A stretch of DNA of 20,326 nucleotides from Saccoglossus kowalevskii (taxonomy: Eukaryota; Hemichordata; Enteropneusta; Harrimaniidae): the NCBI RefSeq assembly GCF_000003605.2, contig NW_003148283.1, positions 58,234 through 78,559 on the forward strand, in the 5' to 3' direction. This document shows, piece after piece, positions 3,753-20,326 of this stretch (position 1 is its first letter; each line of letters begins with the position of its first letter). The notes below the pieces were generated by a model, which saw only the letters and a program-made list of their open reading frames with translations, ran no database searches and was not told the DNA's origin. The position numbers were made by a program, and so were the translations under genes.

Positions 3753-6700
3753 GTAAGTATAACTGTAGTTATATACAGACATTATAACAGTGGGGTAGTT
3801 CATGTATTCATGGACGTACTGTTAGTACATCCATGACTTATCCCTAATACATTGCCTATCCATATTATTTGTATATACGAGCGCTGCTCGTCGGTCGATA
3901 CGTCGCCGTACTGTCTTTGTGCATACTTTGAGGTATACTCGTAATAACTTCATATTATTCATTATATTTAGAAATACAGTATTTCTATCGGTATAGTAGC
4001 AATAAAAGTGTAACAAAGTATAATAATAATAATGAAATAATAAAGAAAGAGAAAATATTATAATGTAAAGTATAAAAGTAAAATGTAATGTAATATTTTT
4101 TAACTAATAAAAATAAAATTCAAAACTGTCAACCATCTATTCTTTCTTGAAAGCCTTTGTAAATAAACTGTGAAACCTTTTTTATAATTTCACATTCATT
4201 TGCATAGAATGAATGTATTGTGTGAATCATGTGGTAGAAAATTAAATTCAGACAATAGCAAGTTTCCATATTTTGGACAAATCATGAGTAAATGTAATTC
4301 ATATTCAATCACATTTATGTTGCACTGTTTGCACTTTCTTTCATTTAGTGTTGTTTTGGGATGTGTGTACTTGCATGCAATTTCAAATTTCAAGCATGTG
4401 TGTGCTTGTTCTCAATTTTAGCAATGCTTTGCTGAGATTAATGTTTTGTAATGACAAATATGGCTCAAAAGAGTATTTAAATTTGATGTTGAAAAAAGTT
4501 GTGGTGATGCACATTTTATTTGTTTTGAAAATCTTTTTGGTTTCTATTCTCAGACTGTTTTATATTTTTTTGGAAGAAATTTAACTAAGATATATATTTG
4601 TCAAAAAGATGCGTACTTGCAAGCCTGAACGAAAATGTGTTTTTTCATATCATGATTTAGGTATCGTTAGAAGCAAATATCCTGATGTCAGAGTACCCAC
4701 AGATTTATCAGTTCATCAATTTGTCTTGTCCAAATTTGATCACTATGGAGACAGAGATGCTATGGTTAGTAAACAAAAATGTGAAATGAACATTTAGTGT
4801 TTCCTACTATTATACATGTCCTGGTCTATGGTAGTAAGTGATTGTTTGTGTGATAATTAAATTATTCATGTGTCCCTAACACCATGTACCTCAGGTATTT
4901 GTTTTAATTAAATTAAAGTCAAAACATTTTCCCATGAAGAAAAATCTGAGGTGGATAACATTTTACAGGAACAGAAAACAATACAAATCTGTGATCGATG
5001 AAAATTCTAGAAACCTATAAACTTCGAAAACCTGCCAAATAATTAGGTGGTCGAATTCAACTACAAATACAAAATACCATACAAAGTAATACAAAATACT
5101 ACAAAAAGTTACACAAAGTAACACAAATTACCACACATAGTAACACAAAATTCCAAAGTATCATCCAAAGTACCGCCTACAGTGCCACCCAAAGTAAAGA
5201 TGTTGCTCATAAACCTCATTTTTCTTTAGCAGTATCCATGACAATGTTTGAATGTGTAGGAAGCTGATAACCAAATAACAATGCCATGGGTCCAGATAGT
5301 AGTATGTTTAATATACTAATACATGAAAGTAACATACACACTGGTATTGATGTGTATAAGTATGGTACATTTTAGTTTATATATCAAGCCTTGTTATTTA
5401 TGACCAGGTAAATTATTTTTGGGGAGAAAAATTATTATGCAATTTGTAATTGTGCAACTACATGTATTTTATAGCAGTGTGTACTAGCACTGTGCATTTT
5501 CTCATCTGGAGTCACCAGACTTCATTTTGAAATAATTTTTTAACATAGAAACACGCAAGGTCAATCCTCTCAGAAATTGTTGACTGTGTATTTTGCTTTC
5601 TTCATCCATCATCCAGTTTCCATTGTAATGCATAACTCTCTGTTAATACGTTTCAGATTGATGGGATAACTGGTAAGTCGTACGCCTTCCGGCAATTAAA
5701 AGTCCTTGTTTATCGATGTGGAAGTGGGTTAACTAAAGCTGGATTCCGCCAAGGAGATGTATGCATTTTATACCTACCAAACCTGCCAGAATTTTTTGTT
5801 GCATTTTATGGCGTTGCATCTATTGGAGGAACCATATCCCCTGCAAATCCAGTGTACACTGTTTGTATGTATGTTTTTTTTCTAATTATAGTAAGAATTT
5901 TTTAATAATTTGGTCTATCAATCCATCAATTGTTGTGTGTCTGACATCATTTCCTATCGTAGTGAAATATAATATTTCACAGATGCATGTTGATTTTTTT
6001 TTTTGCTTTTGTACCAACAGGCAGCCATTTTTTGTCAATTGCAACATTTGTCATTTTCAGCCGTGTTTTTTCCAGTGTATACATGACTGTTTACTGATGC
6101 ATGTTTGTTTTGCAATTTGATTCAAAATGGGCACGTCTGGTAGTGATGTTGTTTTTGCCTTGCATTTAATGAAATAAACAGGAAGGTATAACCGAGTGTC
6201 TGTATAGTAACATGCCACATATCATCATCATCATCATCATCATCATCATTAACAATTCCTGATTCCTGAATTACTGTCAGATGTGATGTAATTCTACTTA
6301 CAACCGACGGGGGTAGGACAAAAATATAAAATGTCAAATAAGCACTGGTAGACATGCAACCCAGAAGGAGTCAGCACCATATTTTAAACAGTTTTTTAAA
6401 GATAGCAGAGTAAGTGTGGGTGGGTACTTACAAGGGCAACTAGAAGAACTATTTGAAGACAGCAGGCTGGTACGAGTTAGTTGAAAGATTATGGCAATTT
6501 TATTCCAGATGATTTTTTACGTTGCAAGTTGGAAACTGTGATGTTCTGTGCACCGCGACTCGGAATGATGAATGTGCATTCGGAATGATCAAATTCTGTC
6601 CTACCTTCCAGTTTGTTGACCCAGGTCACAAGAAATGCGCAAGCACACAAACAATCAACGTGCAAATTCTACCAATTCACTACGTTCAATTACCCACCAT

Positions 6701-9700
6701 AGACTCCGGTCAGTCAAAATGACTCACTCAAGGCATCTTGATTACAAACAATTGTTCCCGAATTTAGGCAGAGGGTTCTCAGAACACGCTTATTCACATA
6801 GTTCATACTCACCATAGACTCCGGTCAGTCAAAATGACTATTTTGAACTGTAGGCTTTAATCAGCGATTCAGCCAATGACGGAGAGATATAATCTAGGTC
6901 AGGGGAAGCCCCATGACCCCAAGATTCTTTTCCCTTACATCACGAACCACGTGACCGAGGCCATATGGCGACGCCATTATGGTTGGCTATTCACTCTTTC
7001 TTTATCTCCGCATCGATGGGGATGAAGTTTAGCGACTCTGCATGCATAGCCTACTTTTTCCTGTCCGGGTTTCTGGCTTGGGTTGTTACCGCCGCCGCGG
7101 TAACCGACATTGTAGCTGATTGTAGCTGTTTTCCTTGTAATGTTTACCCTCATGTCGATTTCCCCTTTGTGTGTAACATTTTTCACAACAAAGTAAATAA
7201 AACCTGGCGACGTAACTTAATCACTTGTTGGTTTTGTTGCATCACCTTTTCCAACTGTATTTCGCCTCCCTCATGCATGTCGTGTTCATTTTATGCTTTA
7301 TCAATGTATTTAAAAATGGATAGATGTAATGACAACACCAGAGGCTCGCCGCCGCTTTTGTCTCCTCGTTTTTCGAGGCGACAGTGCAGTGGTTATAATC
7401 AGAATTTACCAGCATAGAACCCGCATCTGAAATGCTATTTTTGTTGTAGCTGCATGCGGGTTTCGGGGTTTTTGCCTTGAAGGCGTGTGTTTTTCTGGAG
7501 TTCTGAGGCCTGAGATGTTTTTCAGAGCCATGCAAAATTGCTGAGACTGACTGTGTCACTCGTATTTTCACAGCAAGGTCGTGAGTAGAAAGTTCTCACG
7601 CTCGGCTACCGGTACTTCGTGTACTAATGTCGATCAGGAGGCCTGATGGTGGAGGTACCGTTTTTTTTCAGCCTCCCCCCGCTGATTGAAGGGCATCCTC
7701 ACAGTCTGTGTTTTCAGGCGGTGGTTTACCCGATTTTACCAACTACAGCGAGGCTTTGTCTCTGGAGGTCTTTCCTCCTATGGGACCCATTGCGTGTCCT
7801 ATTGTGGATCCATCCTCACACAACGCCGGGTTTGCCTCCGAGATGAGGACTTTGGTCGGGGCAAATTGCATTCCCTGGCAGGCCGGGTAGATCAGATGCA
7901 GTTGGAGCGAGCATCTCCACTGGGACCCCTCGGTTGGCAAGTAGGAAGAAACACAAAGCATCACTCACATTTAAAACATGTCTCTTCCGAAGAACCCCCA
8001 TTCCCAGCCGCAACTCTCTCGCCACTGATTTGGGTGAGCCTAGCTCAGGCTAGTTGCACCGGGTCTCCTCTGGGCCCTCAGGCACTGGATGCCAATGGGT
8101 ATGCTGGCAGCCAAGCCTCTGATTTCGGGGCAAAGCTTTCAGGTCAGGGCACACGTTGCGCCTCCCCCTACTTTCAGCCAGCCAGGGTTCGTCACACGGT
8201 ACCAACGGTACTGAGTATCATTGATCCTAGTGATCCTGATACAATGTATATACCCCCACCCTTGATCCTAAGGCAACTACTTACTGTTCTTGAATGCTTA
8301 TGGGACCACATGCATTGGAATTCAAAGCAACCCCGTTGGCACGTCTCCCCCTGTTCGGCTGAGTGCTGAGTAAGCAGACGGTGTTGATTGGCTAATGCTG
8401 GTCAGCCACGGAAGAAGTAATTCTTAACGCCCTGGGTGGGGCAAATCTTATGCAACACTTTCCGTTGGACCAAACGCTACCCAGTTGGTGTGGTTTCGGG
8501 ATCATCCCCCAAAGTGTGGGATGAGACCAAAACGCCCAGACAAGATTCTAAGGCTCCATCCCCAGACCCTGGTATCATGAATTTGTTTGGCAAACCAGGT
8601 AAAGGGGGACGGCCGTGTTCCGTGGGCGTTCTTGCCAGCTCAGTCTGGGATGATCCATCATGCCCTTAGGGCAGAGTTGCTTGAGCACAGGACTTCGAGA
8701 CCTCGGAGGCAGAACGCACCAGCCTCCTAGACCAGGAAACACATTTACTGGTGGGCCGTCGCACATCTACGTGCAACATCCCCAGTGTCACCTGGCTCTC
8801 CTGGTCGGGCCGACTACTGTGAAATGAGACACGGTCTTAGTTGCGTGTGTTTTCGCCGGCAAACTGAGTCAGGGGATACATCCCCACCTCAGTGACACAG
8901 ACTGGACATCTTCCACCCTCTTTGATGGGGGAGATGCCAGGTTCAGTCTCGGAGCTTTGGAGTGCAATAAACCAGATGGTTCAGATCGAATATGCTAGCC
9001 AGTTGGCCACTGCCAAGAGTAAATGGAGGGCACAGAGGGCACAGACAACATACCGCCTTAAGGTGATGTTCGCTAGCCAGAGTCAGCCAGGAGGCAAGCG
9101 CTCATACCCTTTCATGGGAAGGAAAAGTAGTGGCGTGCCCCCAGAAAGAGACCAGGTTGTGACTCCTAATCCTACTCAGACGGACGTCCACCCTGGCAGC
9201 GGGGGAAGGATGTTTGACGCTTACCTCTGCCACTGGGGGACAGGCATGTGTTCGACGAGTGGCCAGGTCACAACTTAGTGACTACCGCAGACCTTGGGGA
9301 AACTCACCTCATGGGAGAAGAGAGTACCCACACCTCGCAACTGCTGAACCATGGCCAGTTGCACACAGATTGCACTGGTGTAGTCTAGTTTGGAGGCAGT
9401 GGGTGACCGATCACTGGACTTTCCATGTGGTGACATATGGTTACCACGGAAATCTCCATCTCCCCATCAGTTTCTCCCTCATTGGGGGCACTGCCAGGGG
9501 ACTCCTGCAAGGCGGAAGCTATCAGACAGTTTGCTGGAAAAGAGCGCCATACACAAGGTAGGTCAGCCGGCATTAATTCCAGGCTTCTACTCAAATGTGT
9601 TTGTAGTACCAAATCTACAGGTGGTGGGCATCCAGTTCTGGACCTAGGCAGACTGAATCAGTACGTGCTCCTCCAGCGGTTTTGCATGGAGATGCCATTC

Positions 9701-12700
9701 AGCGTTATTCTCTCCATCTACCATTTTGAATGGCTAGCCCCACTTGATTTAAGTGGGCCTACCTGCACATACCGATGCATCCGGCTAGTTGCCATCTCCT
9801 TTGAGTCACCCAGCTTGGCCAAGTATTCAAATCTCAGTGCTCCCCTCCCTTCGGGTTATGCACAGCCCCCTATGTTCCACTGAAATGGATGGCACAGGTG
9901 GTGCTGCTGCTTCACCAAACGTTGGTACACATCAATCCGTACCTAGACATGAGGTCCATTCGATTGCTAACTCACTAGTGCTAGCGTCAGGCGCCCCCTC
10001 AAACCTTTTTCTTTATCAACTACTACCTAAGAGACACCCAATCCATTTAGGAGAGCATCTTTTAGGCTGGGTCCCGTCATAGTGGGTCAGACTCTGGGCA
10101 CTTCAAACCCTGTCACCTTGCAGCATTTTTGGCTTTTTGCTCCAGGGACAGCACAGGCGAGGTAAGACACTACCCTCGTTTGGGGGTCTTAGCTAGGTGA
10201 TGAGTGGTGTAGAGTGTATCATCCCGGACGGGGAAAAGACTTTCATCATTTTCTGTTTGCTCAGAAAACTCACCACCTATTGGCGTCTGACTCTGCCTAC
10301 ATTTCAAAATAGTCAATTTGACAGACTGGAGTCTATGGTGGGTAATTGAACGTAGTGAATTTAGGCAGAGGGTTCTCCAAACCCGCCTATTCACATAGTT
10401 AATACCCACCAGACTCTGGGTCCCCCAACCACCCCACTCTTTCCGTAGCGGAAAGAAAGAAACCAGAGTGAATAGCCAGCCGTAATGGTGCCGCCATATG
10501 GCCTTGGTCACGTGGTTCGTGACGTAAAGAAATAAATCTTGGGGTCATTGGGCTTCCCCTGACCTAGATTCTATCTCTCCGTCATTGGCAGAATCGCTGA
10601 TTAATGCATACAGTTCAAAATAGTCATTTTGACTGACCAGAGTCTATGGTGGGTATGAACTATGTGAATAAGCGGGTTCTGAGAACCCTCTACCTAAATT
10701 CGGGAACAATTGTTTGTAATCAAGATGCCTTGAATGATTTTTTTTCTCAACAATTGTTCAATCATATCTAAACTGATTGTGTTTTAAGGTGGTAACTTGG
10801 TACTAACATCACTCATGGTGGGTTAATGAGACATGTCATTTTGTTTCATAATTGATTCAAATTGCTAGTCTGGTGGCCAACCTATTTTTTAGAAATTTTG
10901 TATCATTTTCATTCATATTTGTCACATACATCATAAATATAATAATACATGTTCATGTCAGTTTGTTCCATTATTAGATCAAAGATGCCTGACTGGCATT
11001 CATCTTGTGTTTTGGAAAATGAGGTATCTTGGACAGGATTTATCAGTTACAAACATTATACATTTTGAGATACATGTCCATGATGATTCGTTTCGTGTTC
11101 AAATCTAAAATGAGAAACTGGCAGCCATCCTGTTTTTCCAAAATGTATACTTGACATTTTTTTCTCAAATTATACATAGGATAATTAGGATACATTTTGT
11201 TTCACAATCAAATCAAAAATGGTTGCCTGCCTGCAATCTTGCTTTTTGATCAAACTACTATATCTATTACTACTACATGGACCCAGACAATGGAAATTCA
11301 ATTTGGATACAAAAAATGTATGAGTAGGATATCCTGTGTAATTTCATACCATATATTTTGATTTTGTAAGAGTCATTTAATACACCTAATTTCTGTAGAT
11401 ACTCGACCAGCCAATTATTCACTCTCAATTCACTTCCCCTACTTCCAACAGGGACAATGTCATGAACAATGACATATTTTCAAATGTTTCTAAGATAAAT
11501 TTGGTACAGGCGCAACATAATGGTTTGAATCTTTTCAGTTTCAACGCACTACAAACGCGCCCAGCAGGTATCATTTACAGGCATAGAGGCTCTCAGTAGA
11601 CCCGCACATGCAAAAGGTTTATCTGAGCTGCCAACGTTCTGGCCAGGGCGCACAGGGATTCCACCAACGCTGTCTACATTTCTAAGTGGTGAGCTTACAC
11701 TGATTGGTGTAGCGGAAGGGAGATTGATCCATACCATCTCTCTATTTGCCAGGTAGCACACTCCTTCATCCACCTGTTTGACGAAGTGGGTTTGTCCTAG
11801 CAGAATCGCTGAATAATGCCTACAGTTCAAAATAGTCATTTTTACTGACCGGAGTCTATGGTGGGTATGAACTGTGTGAATGGGCGGGTTCGGAGAATCA
11901 GAAATTGTTTGTAATCAAGACTTTTTTTTAAACATTTTCTTAACAATTGTTCAATCATACCTGAAATGATTGTGTTTCAGGGTGGTAACTTGGTCCTAAC
12001 ATCACTCATGGTGGGTTAATAAGACATGTCATTTTGTTTCATAATTGATACAAATTGCTAGGCTGGTGGCCATCTAATATTTTCGGAAATTGTGTACCAT
12101 TTTCATTCATATGTGTCACATACATCATACATATAAGAATACATGTTCATATGATTTCAATAAAACTAATGGTCATTTTTTTCAAAATATTTACAAAAAA
12201 ATAATTTAATGTGTCATCAACCATATCTCAGACATGGTTTTATTCAAGCTATGTATTAACATCCCACGCGATGAGGAAGGTGTTTTGTTACACGTCGATT
12301 TGATTCAAAATGGCCGTTTTGCAGCCATGTTGTGTTTTTATGAGAAGCAGACCAGACTAGCCCCACATCAACTAATTTTGCTTCCCAGCCCAAAACACCT
12401 TACGTTTGTATAATTATTTGTTATTATTATTCATTATGTATTATTATATAAACCAATCTGAACTCCCAAGAAACCAAATAGCCTGGAAAGCTTTGGTTTT
12501 CTGCTCACTTTTTATTCAGGGTATCTGTGTAAATTGTCTACAACTTCATCCAACCAAATACAATTCACATTCACATAACTCTCCACCAGGATCTCCAACC
12601 AATTAGAACTTTCCGTACTAGAAAGTGACTTGTAACATGAGTTTTGATTGGTTAGTCATTTGGTCAGATGTACACTAATGACCATTTTATGATAAGTGAC

Positions 12701-15700
12701 TGAAGTATTGTTCTCATTAAAGTCACATTCATAGTCTTTGATATGGGACCCATATACAATGTATACAAAGTGTGTAAAAACATTGTTTGTCTCCATAAAT
12801 TCAAAACACATGCTGCATGATGACTCTGTAAAGCACTTTTTAATTTTTCCTGATTATAACATTTACGAAGAGTCATTACATAAAAAGTGACGTGCATTTT
12901 CAATATGTTGTGTTTCTTCGCTTTATTTCAGATGAACTAACTACTCAACTCAAACATTCCGGTGCTCAATGGATGATAACGACATCTGAGTTGGCTGGTA
13001 AGGCCAAGCAGGTAGCACAAAGGGTGTCTGGGATTAAGGTAAGTATATATCAACAGAACGCCATCTGGGTTAGCTGATAAGACCAGATAGGCAGCACAAA
13101 GGGTGTCTGAGATCAAGGTAAGTATACATCATCATAATGTCATCTGATTTGGCTGGTAAGGCCAGACAGGCAGTACTGAGGATGTCCAGGATTAAGGTAA
13201 GTATACATCAACAGAATGCCATTTAAGTTGGCTGGTAAGACTAGACTTTGTCGAGCGGACCTTATCATATGATTGTCCGTCAGCGTCTCTGTCAATGTTT
13301 TACTTTTTCGTCTTCTTCTTGAAAACTACAAGCCTGAATGCTTTGATACTTGGTGTATATGTACCTTGGGTAGGCCTTCCTTAGATTTGTTCATTTCATG
13401 ATATCTTTAATTCTCTAATTTTGACTAATATTTTTGTCATTTTTGGTAAAAAAAGACATTTTCGACTTCTTGTTGAAAACAGGAAGTCCAATTGCTTTGA
13501 TACTATACATACTGTTCATTTTTTAATGATATGTTCAGTTCATTCATTGAAATGTGCATTGCTGACAGCGGAGCTATCTCTGCTTGTTTAAAATTGTTGT
13601 TCAGTTTCCATCTCTCTACATGCATAACACTGATGGCATTTCATCTTACACATATGTCATCATGTCACAACTATTGACATGCATTCATTTCAAATTGTTT
13701 CAAAATGATTGGCTTGTAGTTCTTCTAGTAAAAATAAATCGTAAAAAGTATTTCAACATTTTTAGAAAACTCATGGCTCTCATGAATGGATTTGGTACAA
13801 ACATAACTGGAAGATCCAGATCCTGGAATCGATGGCATTTCTAGTATACTTGTATTTACATCATGTAAGCTACATACTAAGGGACATGAGTGTACATGTA
13901 CTCTCACAGTTTTCCAATTTAAGTAATTTTATCTTACAATGGTAACTGTTCCATGTCATGATGACTGATTTTTCATGGGGTATCAGTTTCGTTATAAATT
14001 TCTCATTATTTTAGGCTTTGTATGTGATTGGTGATGAATCCGTGGAAGGATGTCGATCTTTCGCCGCTGACTTAATGGAGGATGACGGATCAGCGTTTCC
14101 TACCGATGTTCGAATTAACCCAGCGGAAGATGTCGTTGCTTTACCATATTCAAGCGGTACAACTGGTTTACCGAAAGGTGTGATGTTGACACATGGAAAC
14201 ATGGTTTGTAATCTCCATCAGATTAGGTTAGTCATACCGATCTAATGCCTGATATCATGCCTTGTATTAAAACACCCAGTACATAATATGACGTCATATT
14301 ACGAGATTATCGCAACAGGGGTTGTACATTTCATCACTTGTGGTTTTGCATCCAGGTCTGTAGAGAGCACCGACTATTAAAATTCATTGAAATTTGTCAC
14401 GTTTGTAAATTTACCAGGGACTCTGAGTTTCCATCCCAAAAGGCTAAACTCTCTTAGAATGCCTCATTACTGTACACCCATTTATTTTCACTGACAATTA
14501 ATTTAACTATTTTTGATGTGCGAGCATATTCACTGTTCACAAATTCACATATCAACGAAAATAGCACAATTTAAACCAGTCAATAATTAATGCATTTACA
14601 GTGTCGCATACGACTTGTTTACCACTTCCGTGTGACTGAGAATGTTCTAGAACCGTACTATGTCTGGGTGGAATTTTTAGATGTTGATTGAATAGGTAAT
14701 ATGACACTGTAGAAGGCAATAGAAGGTAATGGAACATTCTAGAAATTTGTAGTATGTTCCAGACTCATTATGTATGCTGATATAATGGTCTATTTATAGA
14801 CAGTGTGGGTATATATAGATCATATACTGAGATCAGATCGGAGATCTTGTTGGAGTTTAAGTATCTAGTTATTGGAGGTTTGGAGTTTTACCGAGTTATT
14901 GTACTTGATGTTTGCAGAGTATAATAATACCAGTACCAGTTGAAACCTCATCTTTTGACTCCGTGTTCGTATGTAATCATCGCCGCCAGGGAAGTCTTTA
15001 TGTTACTGTCGCCATCTTGGTATTTGAACCATCACACCTGTACTATACCAATTACGGTAATATTACGTTGCGTGTGACATACAGTATTTTGTGTAAATTC
15101 CTATGATAAATTCCGACAAAAATGAGTGTCGTCTGCAATGGCTTGCTTGTGAATGCAGAAGATTTGATGATCGACAATCACGATGTTAATTAGTGTTATA
15201 CAAAACCTCAATTTCGCTAACTCACTAACTTGAATTTTGATAAAAATTTTAACCATTATAAAATAAAAACATCATGTTTTGCCTGTAGTTACACGTAATC
15301 CAAAATGTCTGTACAATAGATGATATGGGGTACAGTAAAGGAGTTGTACAGGAATATTAGAAAATAGACTGGGGAACACATTGATGAATTTGAAAAAAAT
15401 AAATCCAATTTTAGGGACAAAGTTTTTACGGATGTGTTTAATGTTGGAATTGTGATCTATATTCACTCCCAAGTACTTAGCTATGCGAATGCCTTCTACT
15501 GGTGAACCACAAGCATTCAAGAAATCCACGTGACTGCACTGCTCCTAGGGGTGTGTAAATTATTGTATTGGTCTGTCAATATTGACTGTCACGTTTGTTT
15601 GCATTGCACCACTTGTACACTCTTTGGAATTCTTGAAGCTGACTAGGACATACCGTATGCATGTAGAAAAGAGGGGAGAGATAAAAAATAGTGGTGTCCC

Positions 15701-18700
15701 TATAGTGGTATGAGGGTCAATAGTCGCATACTAGCCACCAATACCTTTGAGATATTTAAATCTGAATGATGACAACTATCACAAACATGCAAAACTTGTT
15801 TTCCATGTCATTATGACAATAACTCAAGTTTATTTAATTCTCAGAACCCCAGGATTACTGGATTTTTCAGTTGATGATGTTATACTGTGCGTTTTACCAT
15901 TCTATCACTCCTATGGAATGGTTGCTGTGCTTGCCAATGCATTAAGTCAAGGAGCAAAACTAGTCACAATGCCAAAATTTGAACCTCAAAAATTTCTGCA
16001 ACTCATTGAAAAATACAAGGTAATGATGATAATAATTCTCAAATTTGTATGTTATGCTGTTTTATGAATTCAAAGCAATCAATGCATGGAGGCAGTGTTG
16101 TATTTACTGTAGTATGCCTGTTTTCTGACTCCAAAGTGATGATCTGTATCCATCACATAATATTACGGTGAGGGCGCCCCACATTCTGAATTCAAAATGA
16201 GGCTTGGAACACCATAGGTAATTTTTATGTTGAGCCTCTTATTCTCATCATATTGTATATATTATTTTGCAGATAACACAAGGTCTGTTTGTTCCGCCAA
16301 TAATTTTGTTTCTAATAAAACACCCAATGGTTGATCAGTATGATCTGTCTAGTCTTGTATATATATTAAGTGCAGCGGCACCTCTCGGTCCCGAACATAT
16401 CACTGAACTCAAGAAAAAACTAAAGAATGAAAATCTAATTGTGAGACAAGGTATATACATCAATCCCTTGATATCGTATCCATAAATGGTATATATATTA
16501 TTACAAGCACAAGCCAAGTTATTCCCTGTTGAACAGAAAATATGGCTTGTGTTGTCTGTGAGCGTGAAGACTCACACCGCCATGAATGCACCACAACCTT
16601 ATGGAAGACACAAGTGATAACTCAGTTTTTTGTCTTCATAATGAGCAATATAAGTCCAAATAGTATGTTTAGTCACCGAATAAACAGTTATGATTATCAT
16701 GTTCATGATATAAATGTTCATTGCACATTTATGTTTTTCCAGACCATGGATTTTCACCTTGCTAAAAATGCATTATTTACATGACACGCCTTCAAAACAG
16801 ACAAATGAAAATAATTCAACAACTTGGCTTGTGCTTGGGATTGGGCTTGTGTCTCTGACTTGTAGTGATACTGCTCTTACGTTACTTGAGTCATATATTT
16901 TCCCCAGCTGAATAAAGGATAATATTAGGAAATAATATAAAATCACTTAACAGAGTGAAGACGATCAATTTTAATTAGTGACAAATGTAAAATGTACTTT
17001 TACTTGTATATGGCCAGGTATGTATAATTATTATCAGGAACTGAAAAAACATGTAAGGACCGACCAAACATTTGCTATATACAATCACCATTCTGCCTCT
17101 ATGCATAATTAGTCAAGATCTGATTCAGACGGCGTAATGGCGGCCATTTTTGTGCTGAAAAATCATCAAAAATCAAACATTTCTGGCTATTTACAGATTG
17201 ATTTTGTTTAAACTAGGGACCATGATGCGCATCATTCTTTTATCCGAGTGAAATTTAAAATGGCCGACTGGCGGCCATTTGTTTTAATTGATGCTGTGCC
17301 AGAGCAATATCTCAAGGGCAAGTACTTGTTTGATGATCAGATACAAGATGACTGAATGTCAGTCATTTTATTGTAACAGCTTCTGAATCCATATCTCTGA
17401 CATGTTTATGTTCAAACTATATTAATATATACTATAACAAAACTATATATCTTAAGTTTGATAACTGACGGGGACTGTGCCATGCATGACAGGGACTGTG
17501 CCATGCATGACAGGGACTGTGCCATGCATGACAGGGACTGTGCCATGCATGGCTTGTTTGTTTTTTAATAACCTCAGTGGTTCTGTAATAATGATAATTT
17601 ATTGACACACCATATGAACGTTATACAGCAGTATGTTCATTAAAATGGAATATACATAATTTGCAAAAGCTATTATAAGTTTAGCGTCTGAAGCACTTGA
17701 TAAATAATTTGCATTCTTGATTTTATTCAAATTTATCAAACTCTAAAGGTAATTTTGCAAAAGAATGGTAATGCAAACTAAAACTGGAAAACAAATCTTT
17801 TTTTAGTAATGATGCAAGATCTTTATCGTTATATAATGTTTTGACAGGATATGGATTGACTGAAACTAGTACTGCTTCAAACATCTGTTCCCGGTATGAA
17901 GAATTTCATCCTGGTTCCGTTGGACCATTATTACCAAACACACTTGGCAAGGTACAAGTCATTTTACACCTGCTGTTGGCCCTTTCACTTCCATTGTTGA
18001 CTTTCTCGCTTCCACTGTTGTCTCACTTCCATTGACCACCCTCCCACTTTTATTGTTGACCCTCTCACTTCTATTGTTGACTTTCTCACTTCCACATTGA
18101 CCCTCTCACTTCCACATTGACCCTTTCATTTTACTATTAAGGCCATAGAAAGCAAAAATGAGTTGGTCCGGCCATCCATCGAGAGCCGTAGGCCCGATGC
18201 ATATGATGACGTGGGCCAAAGGAAGCATTTATTTATTAACCTCCAACACTCACTTACAATCACTGTCATGATGAATATAGTTTTATTCAAATTATTTTAT
18301 TATTCTAGGTAGTTGATCTTAAGACAGGAGAAAATCTTGCAGCTGGTCAAGATGGTGAAATCTGCCTCCGTGGACCCCAGATCATGAAAGGCTATCTAAA
18401 TAATATACAAGCAACAAACATGACAGTAAAAGACGGATGGTTATATACTGGTAATATAATTGTACATTGTAACATTTTCTTTCTACATTGATGATATTTA
18501 ATGTTGGTCACATTTATACAGTGGCTTCATTGTATCCTCATTCAGTTGGCACGCTCACCTATTCACCTTCCACTAATTTCCACGTGCATCATTCGAACAT
18601 TATTCTGATCACTAGTGTGACAGTGGTTCATCTTAAAACTGCAATAAGCGAAATGTTCTTATAAAGCCACAAGTGAATATTCAGGCAGAGAATTATTTTA

Positions 18701-19376
18701 ATAATTAAAATGTGTATTTTTGATAAAATGCATAAAATTTATATAATTTAGCAATTCAAAAACACTGTTCAAAATGTATATATAACAGAAAAAAGTGAAG
18801 AAGCAATCGCACATTGTTGAACTTAACAACACTATACTAATGTTAGATTGTGAAAAGGTGATGTAAAATACTTTATTTTAGCTGGAATCGATTATTTTTA
18901 CTGAAAAAAACCCTAGTGGCAGCCATGTTTTTATTATTAGAATACGCTTATGCGCGTAATAATTCCATATTTGGAATTCGCATTTCCTAATATGGTAGGA
19001 CGAAAATACCCTGTAAAATGTTGCAAAATTACGGCATGCTGTAGCTTATGACATTACGATTACAGATGTATAATTATAATAATATTTAATATCCGCAGTG
19101 AACAATGCTGTTATTTTATCTTCAGGTGTGAACAGCTGGTTCTTGCCGAACGAGTCACTATGAAAAATCAAACGTACAGGCAAAATGTATATAAGTGCGA
19201 TGGCCCATATCGGCCCTATTTTGGTTGCTGAACTCAGTATGGATCATTATGAGGGAAGTAAATGCAAATTTTTGAATTTCTGTTTTGCCCTAGGTGATAT
19301 TGGTCACTATGACAACGATGGTCACTTTTATATTGTTGGCCGATTGAAAGAACTGATCAAATATAAAGGCTTCCAG
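3674..19376 (+). CDS. 4-coumarate-CoA ligase / luciferase-like acyl-CoA synthetase (10 exons, 3' end missing)
   Basis: Spliced product of 464 residues so far. The family activates a carboxylic acid with ATP to an acyl-AMP, then transfers it to CoA; some relatives oxidise luciferin. Seen in order: [14 protein letters not shown]-loop (residues 210-222), PFYHSYGM (255-262), GYGLTET (355-361), GEICLRG in exon 9, DGWLYTGD (431-438) with the conserved Asp, and [11 protein letters not shown] (452-462) with the conserved Arg at the domain hinge. Each exon keeps frame and every intron is GT-AG. The ATG at 3674 has a GCC just before it and opens the frame. Family members are about 540 residues, so the C-terminal part with the catalytic lysine, and any peroxisomal SKL-type tail, is outside the window. 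One oddity: the usual Asp of the VDR hinge motif is Gly (VGR), as in some acyl-CoA synthetases. The substrate cannot be told from sequence. No intact neighbouring gene is visible. Confidence 0.93.
3808..3836. repeat. Short hairpin in intron 1
   Basis: TCATGGACGTAC (3808-3819) and GTACATCCATGA (3825-3836) pair at 11 of 12 positions around a 5-base loop. Confidence 0.6.
4100..4393 (-). pseudogene. LINE reverse-transcriptase C-terminal tail remnant
   Basis: The minus strand reads [19 protein letters not shown] followed by MICPKYGNL (about 4345-4250), then LPHDSHNTF. The C-x2-C ... H-x4-C arrangement with E.E.H and CP.Y is the pattern at the very end of many non-LTR retrotransposon ORF2 proteins. 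A stop at about 4196 breaks it, and a possible continuation ([11 protein letters not shown]) follows. It lies antisense in intron 1 of the host gene. The clade cannot be assigned. Confidence 0.55.
4661..4764 (+). CDS. Exon 2 (SKYPDV N-terminal block)
   Basis: Acceptor TTTAG at 4656-4660 and donor GTTAGT at 4765. It encodes [16 protein letters not shown] followed by [19 protein letters not shown] (residues 27-61). This is the family's typical opening: SKYPDV, then a Val-His-Gln-Phe-Val stretch leading to a YGDRDA block. An ATG at 4609 in the same frame gives a longer open stretch, but the acceptor at 4660 joins exon 1 in phase, so 4609-4660 is better read as intron. Confidence 0.88.
4765..5656. 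other. Intron 2, with a degenerate ACAAAGTAA-type repeat
   Basis: Between exons 2 and 3. The stretch 5058-5200 is a degenerate tandem array of an 11-12-base unit (variants of ACAAAGTAAC and ACAAAATACT). The rest is AT-rich with nothing recognised. Confidence 0.6.
5657..5864 (+). CDS. Exon 3 (adenylating domain, N-terminal part)
   Basis: Acceptor TTTCAG at 5651-5656; donor GTATGT at 5865. Encodes residues 62-130 plus one base, including [28 protein letters not shown] and [13 protein letters not shown], all standard for the 4CL/luciferase N-terminal subdomain. The phase-1 end joins exon 4 to give a Tyr codon (VYTVYELTTQL). The internal GGTAAGTCG at about 5671 looks like a donor, but using it would break the frame and remove conserved blocks. 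Confidence 0.92.
6221..6249. repeat. (ATC)n microsatellite in intron 3
   Basis: Uninterrupted ATC trinucleotides, about nine to ten copies. The poly-Asp frame on the minus strand through it is an artefact. The rest of 5865-6669 shows nothing recognisable. Confidence 0.95.
6728..7010 (+). repeat. DIRS left inverted terminal repeat
   Basis: About 280 bp, highly similar to the reverse complement of 10452-10735. The order is TCAAGGCATCTTGATTAC, GGGTTCTCAGAAC, TATTCACATAGTTCATAC, AATCAGCGATTC, a CACGTGACC E-box and GGCCATATGGCG. The short block CACCATAGACTCCGGTCAGT is also repeated at 6695 and 6810, so the outer boundary may reach about 6670. Confidence 0.85.
7640..9280 (+). pseudogene. Probable first ORF (gag-like) region of the DIRS element, broken
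   Basis: Clearly GC-richer than the surrounding intron, with open frames at 7686-8369 (227 codons), 8436-8669 and 8892-9278 in the same direction as the reverse transcriptase. I recognise no domain, so the gag-like label rests on position only. The 227-codon frame could be chance in GC-rich DNA. 7011-7640, before it, is a leader-like stretch with a perfect hairpin, GTTACCGC/GCGGTAAC, at about 7083-7102. Confidence 0.4.
9390..9951 (+). pseudogene. DIRS reverse transcriptase, frameshifted and catalytically dead
   Basis: Motifs continue through three frames: [12 protein letters not shown] (9531 on) and [10 protein letters not shown] (to 9611); then [19 protein letters not shown] (9611-9667) and PLDLS (to 9754); then [11 protein letters not shown] (9757 on), PPFGLCTAP (9847-9873) and PYLDM (9937-9951). 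The order is that of DIRS-group RTs (VxP...GG.RPVLDL..LN...DLKDAYLHIP...LPFGL.TAP...YLDD). At least two frameshifts and one stop (about 9802) are present. The second Asp of the YLDD box is Met, so this copy cannot encode active enzyme. Upstream [12 protein letters not shown] (about 9415-9450) may be the start of the same protein. Confidence 0.85.
9952..10290 (+). other. End of the DIRS body, domains not recognised
   Basis: Follows the YLDM box directly, where RNase H and recombinase should come. Only about 340 bp remain before the internal complementary region, so most of these domains are deleted. No recombinase R-H-R-Y pattern is seen. Confidence 0.5.
10291..10421. repeat. DIRS internal complementary region (ICR)
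   Basis: First half (10304-10360): TTTCAAAATAGTCA ... GAGTCTATGGTGGGTA in the orientation of the right terminal repeat's outer part. Second half (10360-10421): TTTAGGCAGAGGGTTCTC ... TATTCACATAGTTAATAC in the orientation of the left one. This head-to-head join of both ends is what the ICR of DIRS elements looks like and serves as the template for end joining during circular replication. Confidence 0.8.
10452..10735 (-). repeat. DIRS right inverted terminal repeat
   Basis: Reverse complement of the left repeat with few differences, including the CACGTG E-box and the palindrome GGGTTCTGAGAACCC (10674-10688). Homology ends at ATTCAAGGCATCTTG. Confidence 0.85.
10590..10957. repeat. Copy A of a ~360-bp duplication (DIRS end plus flank)
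   Basis: Runs from CAGAATCGCTGA inside the right terminal repeat through its outer end and into adjacent DNA, to about 10957. Copy B is 11797-12151, about 1.2 kb downstream in the same orientation. Confidence 0.85.
10836..11245. repeat. Degenerate ~110-125-bp repeat with AAATGGC..CTGGC.GCCATCTTG cores
   Basis: Similar blocks (TTTGTTTCA, then ATCAAA, then TGGC and GCCATC halves) start near 10836, 10957, 11081 and 11191. Related cores occur at 12305-12334, 17135-17152 and 17256-17281 (AAAATGGCCGACTGGCGGCC). The core is an imperfect palindrome. It looks like a dispersed genomic repeat. 11246-11535 shows nothing else. Confidence 0.6.
11536..11796 (-). other. GC-rich segment abutting the third DIRS end, with a minus-strand open frame
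   Basis: Sharp rise in GC content between AT-rich flanks. Read on the minus strand from the terminal-repeat fragment inward it is open for about 90 codons ([20 protein letters not shown] and onward). In that reading it lies just inside a left-type terminal repeat, so it may be the body of a second, internally deleted DIRS-like copy in the opposite orientation. The sequence itself is not recognised. Confidence 0.4.
11797..12151. repeat. Copy B of the DIRS end plus flank
   Basis: CAGAATCGCTGAATAATGCC through GAGTCTATGGTGGGTATGAA, CAACAATTGTTCAATCATA-like and TGGTAACTTGGTCCTAACAT matches copy A closely, with small deletions. Only about the outer 130 bp of the terminal repeat is present, so this is a fragment. 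The shared flank shows it arose by duplication or that the flank belongs to the element. Confidence 0.85.
12152..12931. other. End of intron 3, nothing firmly identified
   Basis: AT-rich. Contains one palindromic AAATGGCC core (12305-12334). A 79-codon minus-strand frame (12664-12903) might be a LINE 3' tail but has no diagnostic motif. Confidence 0.4.
12932..13038 (+). CDS. Exon 4
   Basis: Acceptor TTTCAG at 12926-12931, consensus donor GTAAGT at 13039. Encodes [20 protein letters not shown] and onward to VSGIK (residues 131-166), matching the family block that follows NPxYT. It is separated from exon 3 by a 7-kb intron carrying a DIRS element. Its last 55 bases and its donor are repeated downstream (see the 79-bp tandem repeat). 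Splicing at the second or third donor would add an in-frame stop at 13075. Confidence 0.92.
12984..13245 (+). repeat. 79-bp tandem repeat made from exon 4 and its splice donor
   Basis: The end of exon 4 from ATCTGAGTTGGCTGGTAAG (12984), its donor GTAAGTAT and 24 bp of intron are repeated at 13063, 13142 and partly at 13221, exactly 79 bp apart. Donors lie at 13039, 13118 and 13197, all GTAAGTAT. Copy 2 has a stop in the coding phase, copy 3 is open, copy 4 has lost the end. Confidence 0.92.
13246..14014. repeat. Intron 4 with an interspersed repeat (13290-13510)
   Basis: CTTCTTCTTGAAAACTACAA with GCTTTGATACT (about 13311-13352) recurs as CTTCTTGTTGAAAACAGGAA with GCTTTGATACT (about 13465-13505). 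An internal duplication of this kind is typical of an interspersed repeat. The rest is AT-rich without recognisable content. Confidence 0.5.
14015..14226 (+). CDS. Exon 5 (ATP-binding P-loop)
   Basis: Acceptor TTTTAG (ends 14014), donor GTTAGT at 14227. Encodes residues 167-236 and two bases of 237. It contains the diagnostic AMP-binding signature [17 protein letters not shown], with the lysine and Gly/Ser/Thr-rich loop intact. This is the strongest single identifier of the gene's family. Confidence 0.96.
14639..14653 (+). promoter_or_regulatory. Heat-shock element 1 in the LTR
   Basis: AGAATGTTCTAGAAC: GAA (14640), TTC (14645), GAA (14650) at exact 5-bp phasing, a perfect three-unit HSF site. 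Identical in the second LTR copy (20099-20113). Confidence 0.75.
14731..14745 (+). promoter_or_regulatory. Heat-shock element 2 in the LTR
   Basis: GGAACATTCTAGAAA: GAA (14732), TTC (14737), GAA (14742), again a perfect three-unit site. Conserved at 20191-20205 in the second copy; 92 bp from element 1 in both. Confidence 0.75.
14791..14818 (+). promoter_or_regulatory. TATA-like boxes of the LTR promoter
   Basis: TATTTATAG (14791-14799) and TATATATAG (14810-14818), both kept in the second copy (20248-20256 and 20267-20275). They lie 50-70 bp after heat-shock element 2, in the order expected of a U3 region. Confidence 0.5.
15272..15660 (-). pseudogene. LINE reverse-transcriptase fragment, frameshifted
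   Basis: Minus strand, in order: [19 protein letters not shown] (15642-15586), [12 protein letters not shown] in another frame, then [20 protein letters not shown] and [12 protein letters not shown] ending near 15272. The order WCxxN...KT...YLGV.ID....W..HI...V..KI is typical of non-LTR retrotransposon RTs of the Jockey/CR1/L2 assemblage. Frame changes and stops show it is dead, and the YADD box is not present. It is antisense in intron 5, just after the solo LTR. Confidence 0.75.
15845..16019 (+). CDS. Exon 6
   Basis: Acceptor TTCTCAG (ends 15844), donor GTAATG at 16020. Encodes [20 protein letters not shown], then HSYGM (residues 238-262), on to [14 protein letters not shown]. The PFYHSYGM block corresponds to the region lining the acyl/luciferin pocket in the family. 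The split codon AG|A restores Arg237. Confidence 0.94.
16273..16450 (+). CDS. Exon 7
   Basis: Acceptor TTTTGCAG (ends 16272), donor GTATAT at 16451. Encodes residues 296-354 plus one base: [20 protein letters not shown], then [10 protein letters not shown], ending NLIVRQ. This is the family region with the S/AGAAPL turn before the GYGLTE motif. The last base joins exon 8 to give the first Gly of GYGLTE. Confidence 0.95.
16505..16836. repeat. 16-bp inverted repeat pair in intron 7
   Basis: AAGCACAAGCCAAGTT (16505-16520) and its exact reverse complement AACTTGGCTTGTGCTT (16821-16836) bracket about 300 bp. It could be the remains of a small inverted-repeat (MITE-like) element, but no target duplication is visible. 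The open frame at 16542 inside it is unremarkable. Confidence 0.5.
16837..17847. other. Rest of intron 7
   Basis: AT-rich intron. It holds two palindromic AAAATGGCC/GGCCATTT cores (17135-17152, 17256-17281) and the 21-bp tandem array (17471-17551). Nothing coding. Confidence 0.5.
17471..17551. repeat. 21-bp minisatellite, four copies
   Basis: GGGACTGTGCCATGCATGACA starts at 17471, 17492, 17513 and 17534. The copies are identical apart from the edge of the last, so expansion is recent. Each unit contains the palindrome CATGCATG. Confidence 0.95.
17848..17951 (+). CDS. Exon 8 (GYGLTET motif)
   Basis: Acceptor TTGACAG (ends 17847), donor GTACAA at 17952. Encodes [16 protein letters not shown] followed by [16 protein letters not shown]. 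The GYGLTE motif contacts the adenylate and its glutamate helps to hold Mg-ATP in this superfamily. Confidence 0.95.
17979..18134. repeat. Pyrimidine-rich tandem repeat at the start of intron 8
   Basis: Variants of CCCTCTCACTTCCATTGTTGA repeat six to seven times with unit lengths of about 22-29 bp, just after the exon 8 donor. The rest of intron 8 to 18308 is plain. Confidence 0.8.
18309..18450 (+). CDS. Exon 9
   Basis: Acceptor TTCTAG (ends 18308), donor GTAATA at 18451. Encodes residues 390-436 plus one base: [35 protein letters not shown]. These are the standard GE(I/L)CxRGP and DGWLxTGD blocks. The TGD motif is split by the intron and completed by exon 10. Confidence 0.95.
18451..19293. 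other. Intron 9, nothing recognised
   Basis: AT-rich, with no repeat or frame of note. A 65-codon frame that runs into exon 10 from 19185 reads through the acceptor and is not supported by family similarity. Confidence 0.5.
19294..19376 (+). CDS. Exon 10 (hinge; last exon in the window)
   Basis: Acceptor GCCCTAG (ends 19293), donor GTATGA at 19377. Encodes residues 437-464: [20 protein letters not shown] and IKYKGFQ. It ends where the family continues with VAPAELE in a following exon. No such sequence is present in 19377-20326, so intron 10 runs off the window. Confidence 0.94.
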
Positions 19377-19699
19377 GTATGAATACAAGAATTTTTTTTG
19401 TCAACAATCGTCATAGTTTAATAATTTGTACCTTCTGAGGGGTAAGGGGGTAATTTTGAAGGGAGAGGAGTAAAGTCTACACAGAAAAAACATTGATTAA
19501 CAATTCTACATTTTAAAATTTATAGGAAGTATTATAGAAAATGCAAACCCACACATTTAATAGCAGAAAGCCAAACAATAATCACAAAACAATGTTGATA
19601 AAAACTAAAAGAAAGAAACAAATAATTTGCTGTTTTTCAAATGTTTTCAAATGGTTCACTTTCTAATAACTTACATAATCAATCTACCAATCATATGTT
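19377..19699. other. Start of intron 10, nothing recognised
   Basis: AT-rich with a G-rich patch at about 19435-19470. No exon resembling the VAPAELE continuation. Confidence 0.5.
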
Positions 19700-19868
19700 G
19701 ATACACTGTGATAACATATTCTATTGGCCAATCAGAATGCTGGATACACTGATTACATATTCTAGTAGCCAATCAGAATACTGCATACAATAATTACATA
19801 TTCTAGTAGCCAATCGGAATACTTCATACATTGATTACATATTCTAGTAGCCAATCAGTATACTGCAT
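19700..19868. repeat. 41-bp minisatellite, four copies, each with a CCAAT box
   Basis: Units starting at 19709-19711, 19752, 19793 and 19834 share ATTACATATTCTAGTAGCC followed by AATCAGAATACTGCA, spaced exactly 41 bp. Each contains (A/G)GCCAATC(A/G)G, close to the NF-Y consensus. Confidence 0.92.
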
Positions 19869-20061
19869 CTTAGTTAAAAAGCCTCACTTAATATTGGACT
19901 GAAAGTTTAAAAGAAATAGAAATTCATTGAAAAGGGGAACATGCATTTAATTTGATTTTCAGTGGATTTTACAATAAGTTTAGGTTATGAACGGCAACAA
20001 AGGTAATTGTTAATGAATACAAGGCCTCTTTGGGAAATTAACATATTTGGCGGAAGATAAT

Positions 20062-20326
20062 TGTCGCATACGACTTGTTTACCACTTCCGTGTGACTGAG
20101 AATGTTCTAGAACCGTACTGTGTCTGGGTGGAATTTTTAGAAGCTGGTTGAATAGGTAATAGGACACTGTAGAAGGCAATAGAAGGTAATGGAACATTCT
20201 AGAAATTTGTAGTAAATTCCAGACTCATTATGTATGCTGTAATGGTCTATTTATAGACAGTGTGGGTATATATAGGGGAGTTGTTCATCACTGAGATCAG
20301 ATCGGAGATCTCGTTGAATTGTATTG
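20062..20326 (+). mobile_element. Second copy of the LTR, cut by the window edge
   Basis: Matches 14602-14858 closely from the first TG onward, with a 4-bp deletion after GTATGCTG and a small change after the TATA box. Both heat-shock elements and TATA-like boxes are kept. The preceding five bases are ATAAT. Whether this is another solo LTR or the 5' LTR of a full element lies outside the window. Confidence 0.9.

Follow-up and report, generated by a model that had tools for sequence, protein, structure and literature searches.

Heat-shock elements (HSEs) borne by transposons have been reported for a plant copia element (PMC3907296) and for nematode Helitrons (PMC6927752). The former, ONSEN, is a long terminal repeat (LTR) retrotransposon of the Ty1/copia type in Arabidopsis (PMC3907296), and the account of the Caenorhabditis Helitrons describes the spread of NGAANNTTCNNGAAN sites, including motifs presented there as tandem overlapping HSEs (PMC6927752). 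In the current study, we examine a 20,326-nucleotide stretch of DNA from the hemichordate Saccoglossus kowalevskii (contig NW_003148283.1, positions 58,234 to 78,559; hereafter called the window), which carries two copies of an LTR family with perfect HSEs in its U3 region. On balance, we lean toward the view that the LTR belongs to a Ty3/gypsy-type retrotransposon that was active recently and has a U3 promoter probably built for heat-shock factor (HSF), and that this promoter would work in an ONSEN-like manner.

The logic that this family is proposed to share with ONSEN is that of riding the heat response of the host (PMC3907296). Compared with the Ty1/copia element described in that report, the present family looks Ty3/gypsy-like, consists mostly of solo LTRs among the scored copies, and is represented by 323 exact two-site places in the genome, and its heat induction is a prediction. 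The Caenorhabditis Helitrons are likewise an animal transposon family that carries HSEs, and the HSE definition given by their authors is the one used here; whereas Helitrons are DNA transposons, the HSEs of the present family sit in an LTR promoter region (PMC6927752). A narrow search of the open-access literature turned up no title that concerns HSEs in an LTR retrotransposon of animals. A study on the LTR of bovine leukemia virus (PMC10236774) reportedly includes both "heat shock element" and "HSF1" in its text; that agent is a complex retrovirus, whereas the present family takes the form of dispersed solo LTRs.

The first of the two copies in the window is a 478-bp LTR on the forward strand (14602-15079). 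Its boundaries are those given in the preliminary description of this DNA, and its ends, TGTC and GACA, are flanked by 5-bp direct repeats with the sequence TACAG (14597-14601 and 15080-15084). The 39 other scored matches span its full length at 91-94% identity. The second copy (20062-20326, forward strand), whose first 178 nucleotides are 96% identical to the first copy, is incomplete because its contig (C3858) stops at the end of the window (78,559). The two are separate insertions, and the first is a solo LTR. We rejected the possibility that positions 14602 to 20062 represent one provirus with two LTRs, given that a separate target-site duplication brackets the first LTR and that coding segments of an AMP-binding gene lie in order between the copies.

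Each copy contains two complete GAAnnTTCnnGAA sites on the forward strand. In the solo LTR, element 1 (GAATGTTCTAGAA) is located at 14640-14652 and element 2 (GAACATTCTAGAA) at 14732-14744, and the corresponding elements of the second LTR are at 20100-20112 and 20192-20204. The spacing between the two is 92 bp in both copies, exactly as first noted. The entire window holds five perfect GAAnnTTCnnGAA sites, four of them within the LTR copies, against a mean expectation of 0.17 and a maximum of two in 100 shuffles. When the 478-bp LTR was subjected to 500 dinucleotide shuffles, 498 products had no such site, two had one, and none had two, which bears out the earlier assertion that two sites in one short U3 are unlikely to arise by chance. 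Beside the LTR, no GAAnnTTCnnGAA site was found in 81,167 bases from 29 loci (flanks, plus the element interior in L006 and L015). The fifth perfect site in the window, GAAAATTCTAGAA at 5000-5012, is outside any LTR copy and could be due to chance.

The preliminary description understated this finding, as element 2 belongs to a longer array. If only GAA and TTC units in strict 5-bp register with one another are counted, six units are present within 50 bp at 14712-14759 (GAA at 14712, 14722, 14732, and 14742; TTC at 14737 and 14757), and the maximum reached in 500 shuffles of the LTR was three. The two LTR copies are the only places in the window with at least five in-register units, and the array of the second copy begins at 20172. 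Judged by the usual rule for an HSE, which is three or more alternating nGAAn units in steps of 5 bp, the solo LTR thus has two perfect three-unit sites, one of which is extended to six. The repeated TTCTAGAA core might instead be recognized by some other factor, such as a STAT/BCL6-type protein or a nuclear receptor, given that its TTC...GAA dyad resembles STAT sites in outline. STAT sites, however, have a longer spacer and no third unit, and a run of three alternating units in exact steps of 5 bp, extended to six in register, follows the rule for HSF. We therefore consider recognition by another factor to be very improbable.

Two TATA-like boxes follow the HSEs, as had been reported: CTATTTATAG at 14790-14799, which 56 of 59 complete LTRs possess, and TATATATAG at 14810-14818, which is present in 53 of the 59 and lies 65 bp past element 2. 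Both element 2 and TATATATAG are exact in 45 copies, and 43 of these keep the distance of 65 bp between them, while the spacing between elements 1 and 2 ranges from 53 to 105 bp across the complete LTRs. This set of 59 distinct LTRs was assembled from 70 loci recovered by whole-LTR and R-U5 queries, after removal of 11 that were duplicates or incomplete.

The HSEs are a trait of the family, as the preliminary description supposed on the basis of two copies. The 323 places noted above were found in 572 Mb of genome and are exact site pairs with a gap of 65-95 bases, a definition that puts shorter-spaced forms outside the count; the reversed control gave 0. A viral sequence collection held no exact match to either the two-site pattern or the LTR start. 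The whole-LTR search produced 597 first-look candidates, 40 of which were scored. These 40 (window copy counted) were ordered by their similarity to the window copy, with the sites contributing to that similarity, which biases them toward intact sites: 37 have a perfect element 1, 36 have a perfect element 2, and 30 have the whole six-unit array. Among the 59 complete LTRs, both sites are found in 48, one site in 11, and neither in 0.

A different sample is offered by 20 5′ LTR regions selected by their adjoining interior, in which two perfect sites are present in 11, one in seven, and none in two. These regions come from 43 interior-match rows, with the omission of rows from copies already sampled (L006, L015, and L070), additional rows for a place that was already represented, and rows that were at a contig end, started inside the query, were very short, or were otherwise unpicked (C1211 and C2039 included); a match in the flanking sequence of L081 was also excluded. 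The LTR start motif is absent in L079 and L092 and displaced in L091. L070 had been entertained as a rearranged copy with an inverted second piece, an idea that was dropped because its letters are the U3 of the LTR itself at a locus on the other strand. Twelve of the 20 regions carry a third site, GAATATTCTAGAT, which matches 8 of 9 fixed bases.

The U3 exists in several forms, including window-like (spacing of ~92 bp), short (~62 bp), and long (102-105 bp); one copy has a spacing of 53 bp and another of 82 bp. Several long-form copies carry the third near-site, and others have a more decayed version of it. The spacer has been rebuilt by insertions and deletions across subfamilies, and the sites have nonetheless been kept. 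Local duplication likely took part in this rebuilding. Near site 2 of L084, there is a local repeat at an offset of 30 in which 18 of 25 bases are alike, compared with a maximum of 17 in 60 shuffles.

The family has the hallmarks of an LTR retrotransposon. In addition to the TGTC...GACA ends, 5-bp target-site duplications accompany 32 of the 40 scored copies (window copy counted), all 32 being solo LTRs; two others are 5′ LTRs followed by TCTGGGGGCTCGTCCGGG, and six are of other kinds. Helitrons insert without target-site duplication, and an identity as an HSE-carrying Helitron is ruled out by these duplications together with the LTR ends. Directly after the LTR in L006 and L015 come the letters TC and then, at the position of a primer binding site, TGGGGGCTCGTCCGGGA, which lies within TCTGGGGGCTCGTCCGGG and which we take to be the tRNA-Pro primer site of gammaretroviruses. 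Some copies thus have both a primer site and a coding interior adjoining the LTR.

Using the start of the interior (primer site plus a gag-like open reading frame) as a query returned 28 first-look candidates and the 43 match rows mentioned above. Such candidates are much rarer than those for the LTR (572-597). The family seems to be dominated by solo LTRs, in part because assembly gaps remove interiors; two stretches further in (L095 and L096) are nearly all N. At C1211:506268-511636, two LTR site pairs are ~5.3 kb apart, with interior matches directly after the first, and this pair is likely to delimit a full-length copy. Regarding ONSEN-type (Ty1/copia) membership, a 52-residue reverse transcriptase piece matched only Ty3 reverse transcriptase chains, and not copia, among solved structures in the PDB (E values of 0.023 and 0.061). 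The interior is likely, but not proven, to be Ty3/gypsy-like.

Several observations weigh against our interpretation of the family as an HSF-driven Ty3/gypsy-type element. With regard to its identity, both Ty3 matches are weak, a second reverse transcriptase-like piece of 35 residues had no match among PDB structures, and four short interior pieces, including the gag-like open reading frame, had no Pfam match. With regard to its promoter, the third site has one mismatch and was seen in only 5 of the 59 complete LTRs, and a degenerate unit, GAACACTGTAGGA, suggests that HSE units also get lost. Of the 20 interior-selected regions, only one has all six units of the array, and the best array in the others numbers five units in 10, four in seven, three in one, and two in one. 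Among the 59 complete LTRs, by comparison, 31 have a best array of six units, 16 of five, and 12 of four, so the full six-unit form is mainly a feature of the subfamily to which the window copy belongs.

Conservation adds to these reservations. The preliminary description proposed a test of whether both sites are better conserved than the rest of the LTR, and when this comparison was made, they were not clearly so. In the 59-LTR alignment, the share of U3 13-mers that equal site 1 in invariance is 5.8%, and for site 2 it is 22%. Of 42 subfamily A copies, 38 retain an intact site 1 and 37 an intact site 2, relative to a neutral-decay expectation of 35.1, and there are four and six changes, respectively, at fixed bases relative to 8.0 expected. 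The test is under-powered because the copies are young (private divergence of 2.1% in subfamily A; mean pairwise identity of 97% among the first 30 copies). Thus, it is not decisive, and it neither strongly supports nor strongly refutes a special constraint on the sites.

These same data would be explained if the sites were inherited decoration, present in the source element and passed on by descent and local duplication without measurable effect. The youth of the copies, the near-neutral decay of the sites, and the many equally invariant U3 13-mers all accord with this notion, and a duplication such as that in L084 may account for part of the site multiplicity. However, two perfect sites, a third that is near-perfect in some copies, and a six-unit register make a chance origin unlikely, and the sites persist in subfamilies whose spacer has been rebuilt. 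Moreover, solo LTRs are expected to decay freely even when the promoter of the source element is under selection. Weighing these points, we regard inherited decoration as rather unlikely.

What the sequences show directly is the anatomy of the LTR, its target duplications and solo state, the number of copies, the presence of the sites, and their distance from the TATA box; HSF binding, heat induction, and an effect on host genes are inferred. In the life cycle that we envision, HSF trimers would bind the two HSEs (three in some copies), one of which forms the six-unit array in the subfamily of the window, and under stress from heat or protein damage would activate transcription from the TATA box downstream. 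Reverse transcription of the resulting transcripts would start at the tRNA-Pro-type primer site, and the products would be inserted with duplication of 5 bp of target. Later recombination between LTRs could then remove the interior, leaving hundreds of solo LTRs that might serve as portable, potentially stress-inducible promoters, some of them inside genes.

Perhaps, instead, the sites bind HSF mainly without heat, such that HSF in the germline or embryo drives the element where transposition is heritable and the heat response is a by-product. HSF1 and HSF2 have germline and developmental roles, heritable amplification requires germline expression, and the anatomy would be identical to that of a heat-driven element. 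Sites of the present type, namely long arrays and contiguous, perfect three-unit elements, are nevertheless tied to a strong stress response, and this germline or embryonic scenario seems to us improbable.

An insertion inside a gene, of the kind raised in the preliminary description, is present in the window. The solo LTR lies between two coding segments of an AMP-binding gene, in the sense orientation. The upstream segment (14015-14242, forward strand) matches positions 152-194 of PF00501 (E value of 9e-15), and the downstream segment (15735-16064, forward strand) matches positions 204-260 (E value of 4.7e-11), with 4-coumarate-CoA ligase as its best match among solved structures. Three further segments on the same strand, at 16234-16482 (positions 256-312; 21.4 bits), 17772-18032 (314-354; 19.5 bits), and 18309-18488 (355-384; 28.8 bits), each fall below the Pfam cut-off of 29.9, yet their PF00501 positions run in order. 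A translated piece at 19164-19379 has no Pfam match. The second LTR, which is also in the sense orientation relative to this gene, is located past the last matched segment, and ~200 bp ahead of it there is a 41-bp tandem repeat (19670-19868) with a CCAATC box in its units.

The window has further features besides the LTRs. A tandem repeat with a period of 79 bp occupies 12973-13245 in three copies that are 79-82% alike, and part of this region resembles an AMP-binding enzyme by eye; the only Pfam match of an overlapping piece (12844-13074) is a sub-cut-off hit to Dsl1_N. Broken open reading frames at 7686-9883 resemble, by eye, a decayed DIRS-type reverse transcriptase, and the two that were tried had no Pfam match. 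A dispersed repeat is found in both orientations at 6716-6997, 10465-10963, and 11800-12157, in pieces that are 78-93% alike.

It is possible, although we advance this only tentatively, that an ONSEN-like life cycle arose independently in a Ty3/gypsy element of this animal. Such an element would have combined a promoter of two to three HSEs, including one that extends to a six-unit array, with heat-driven amplification. It would have scattered several hundred heat-inducible LTR promoters, among them the one within the acyl-CoA synthetase-like gene, thereby rewiring the heat response of the host. If true, an LTR family with an HSE promoter and hundreds of recent copies would provide a direct test of heat-driven retrotransposon bursts, and also of whether insertions pass heat control on to neighboring genes.
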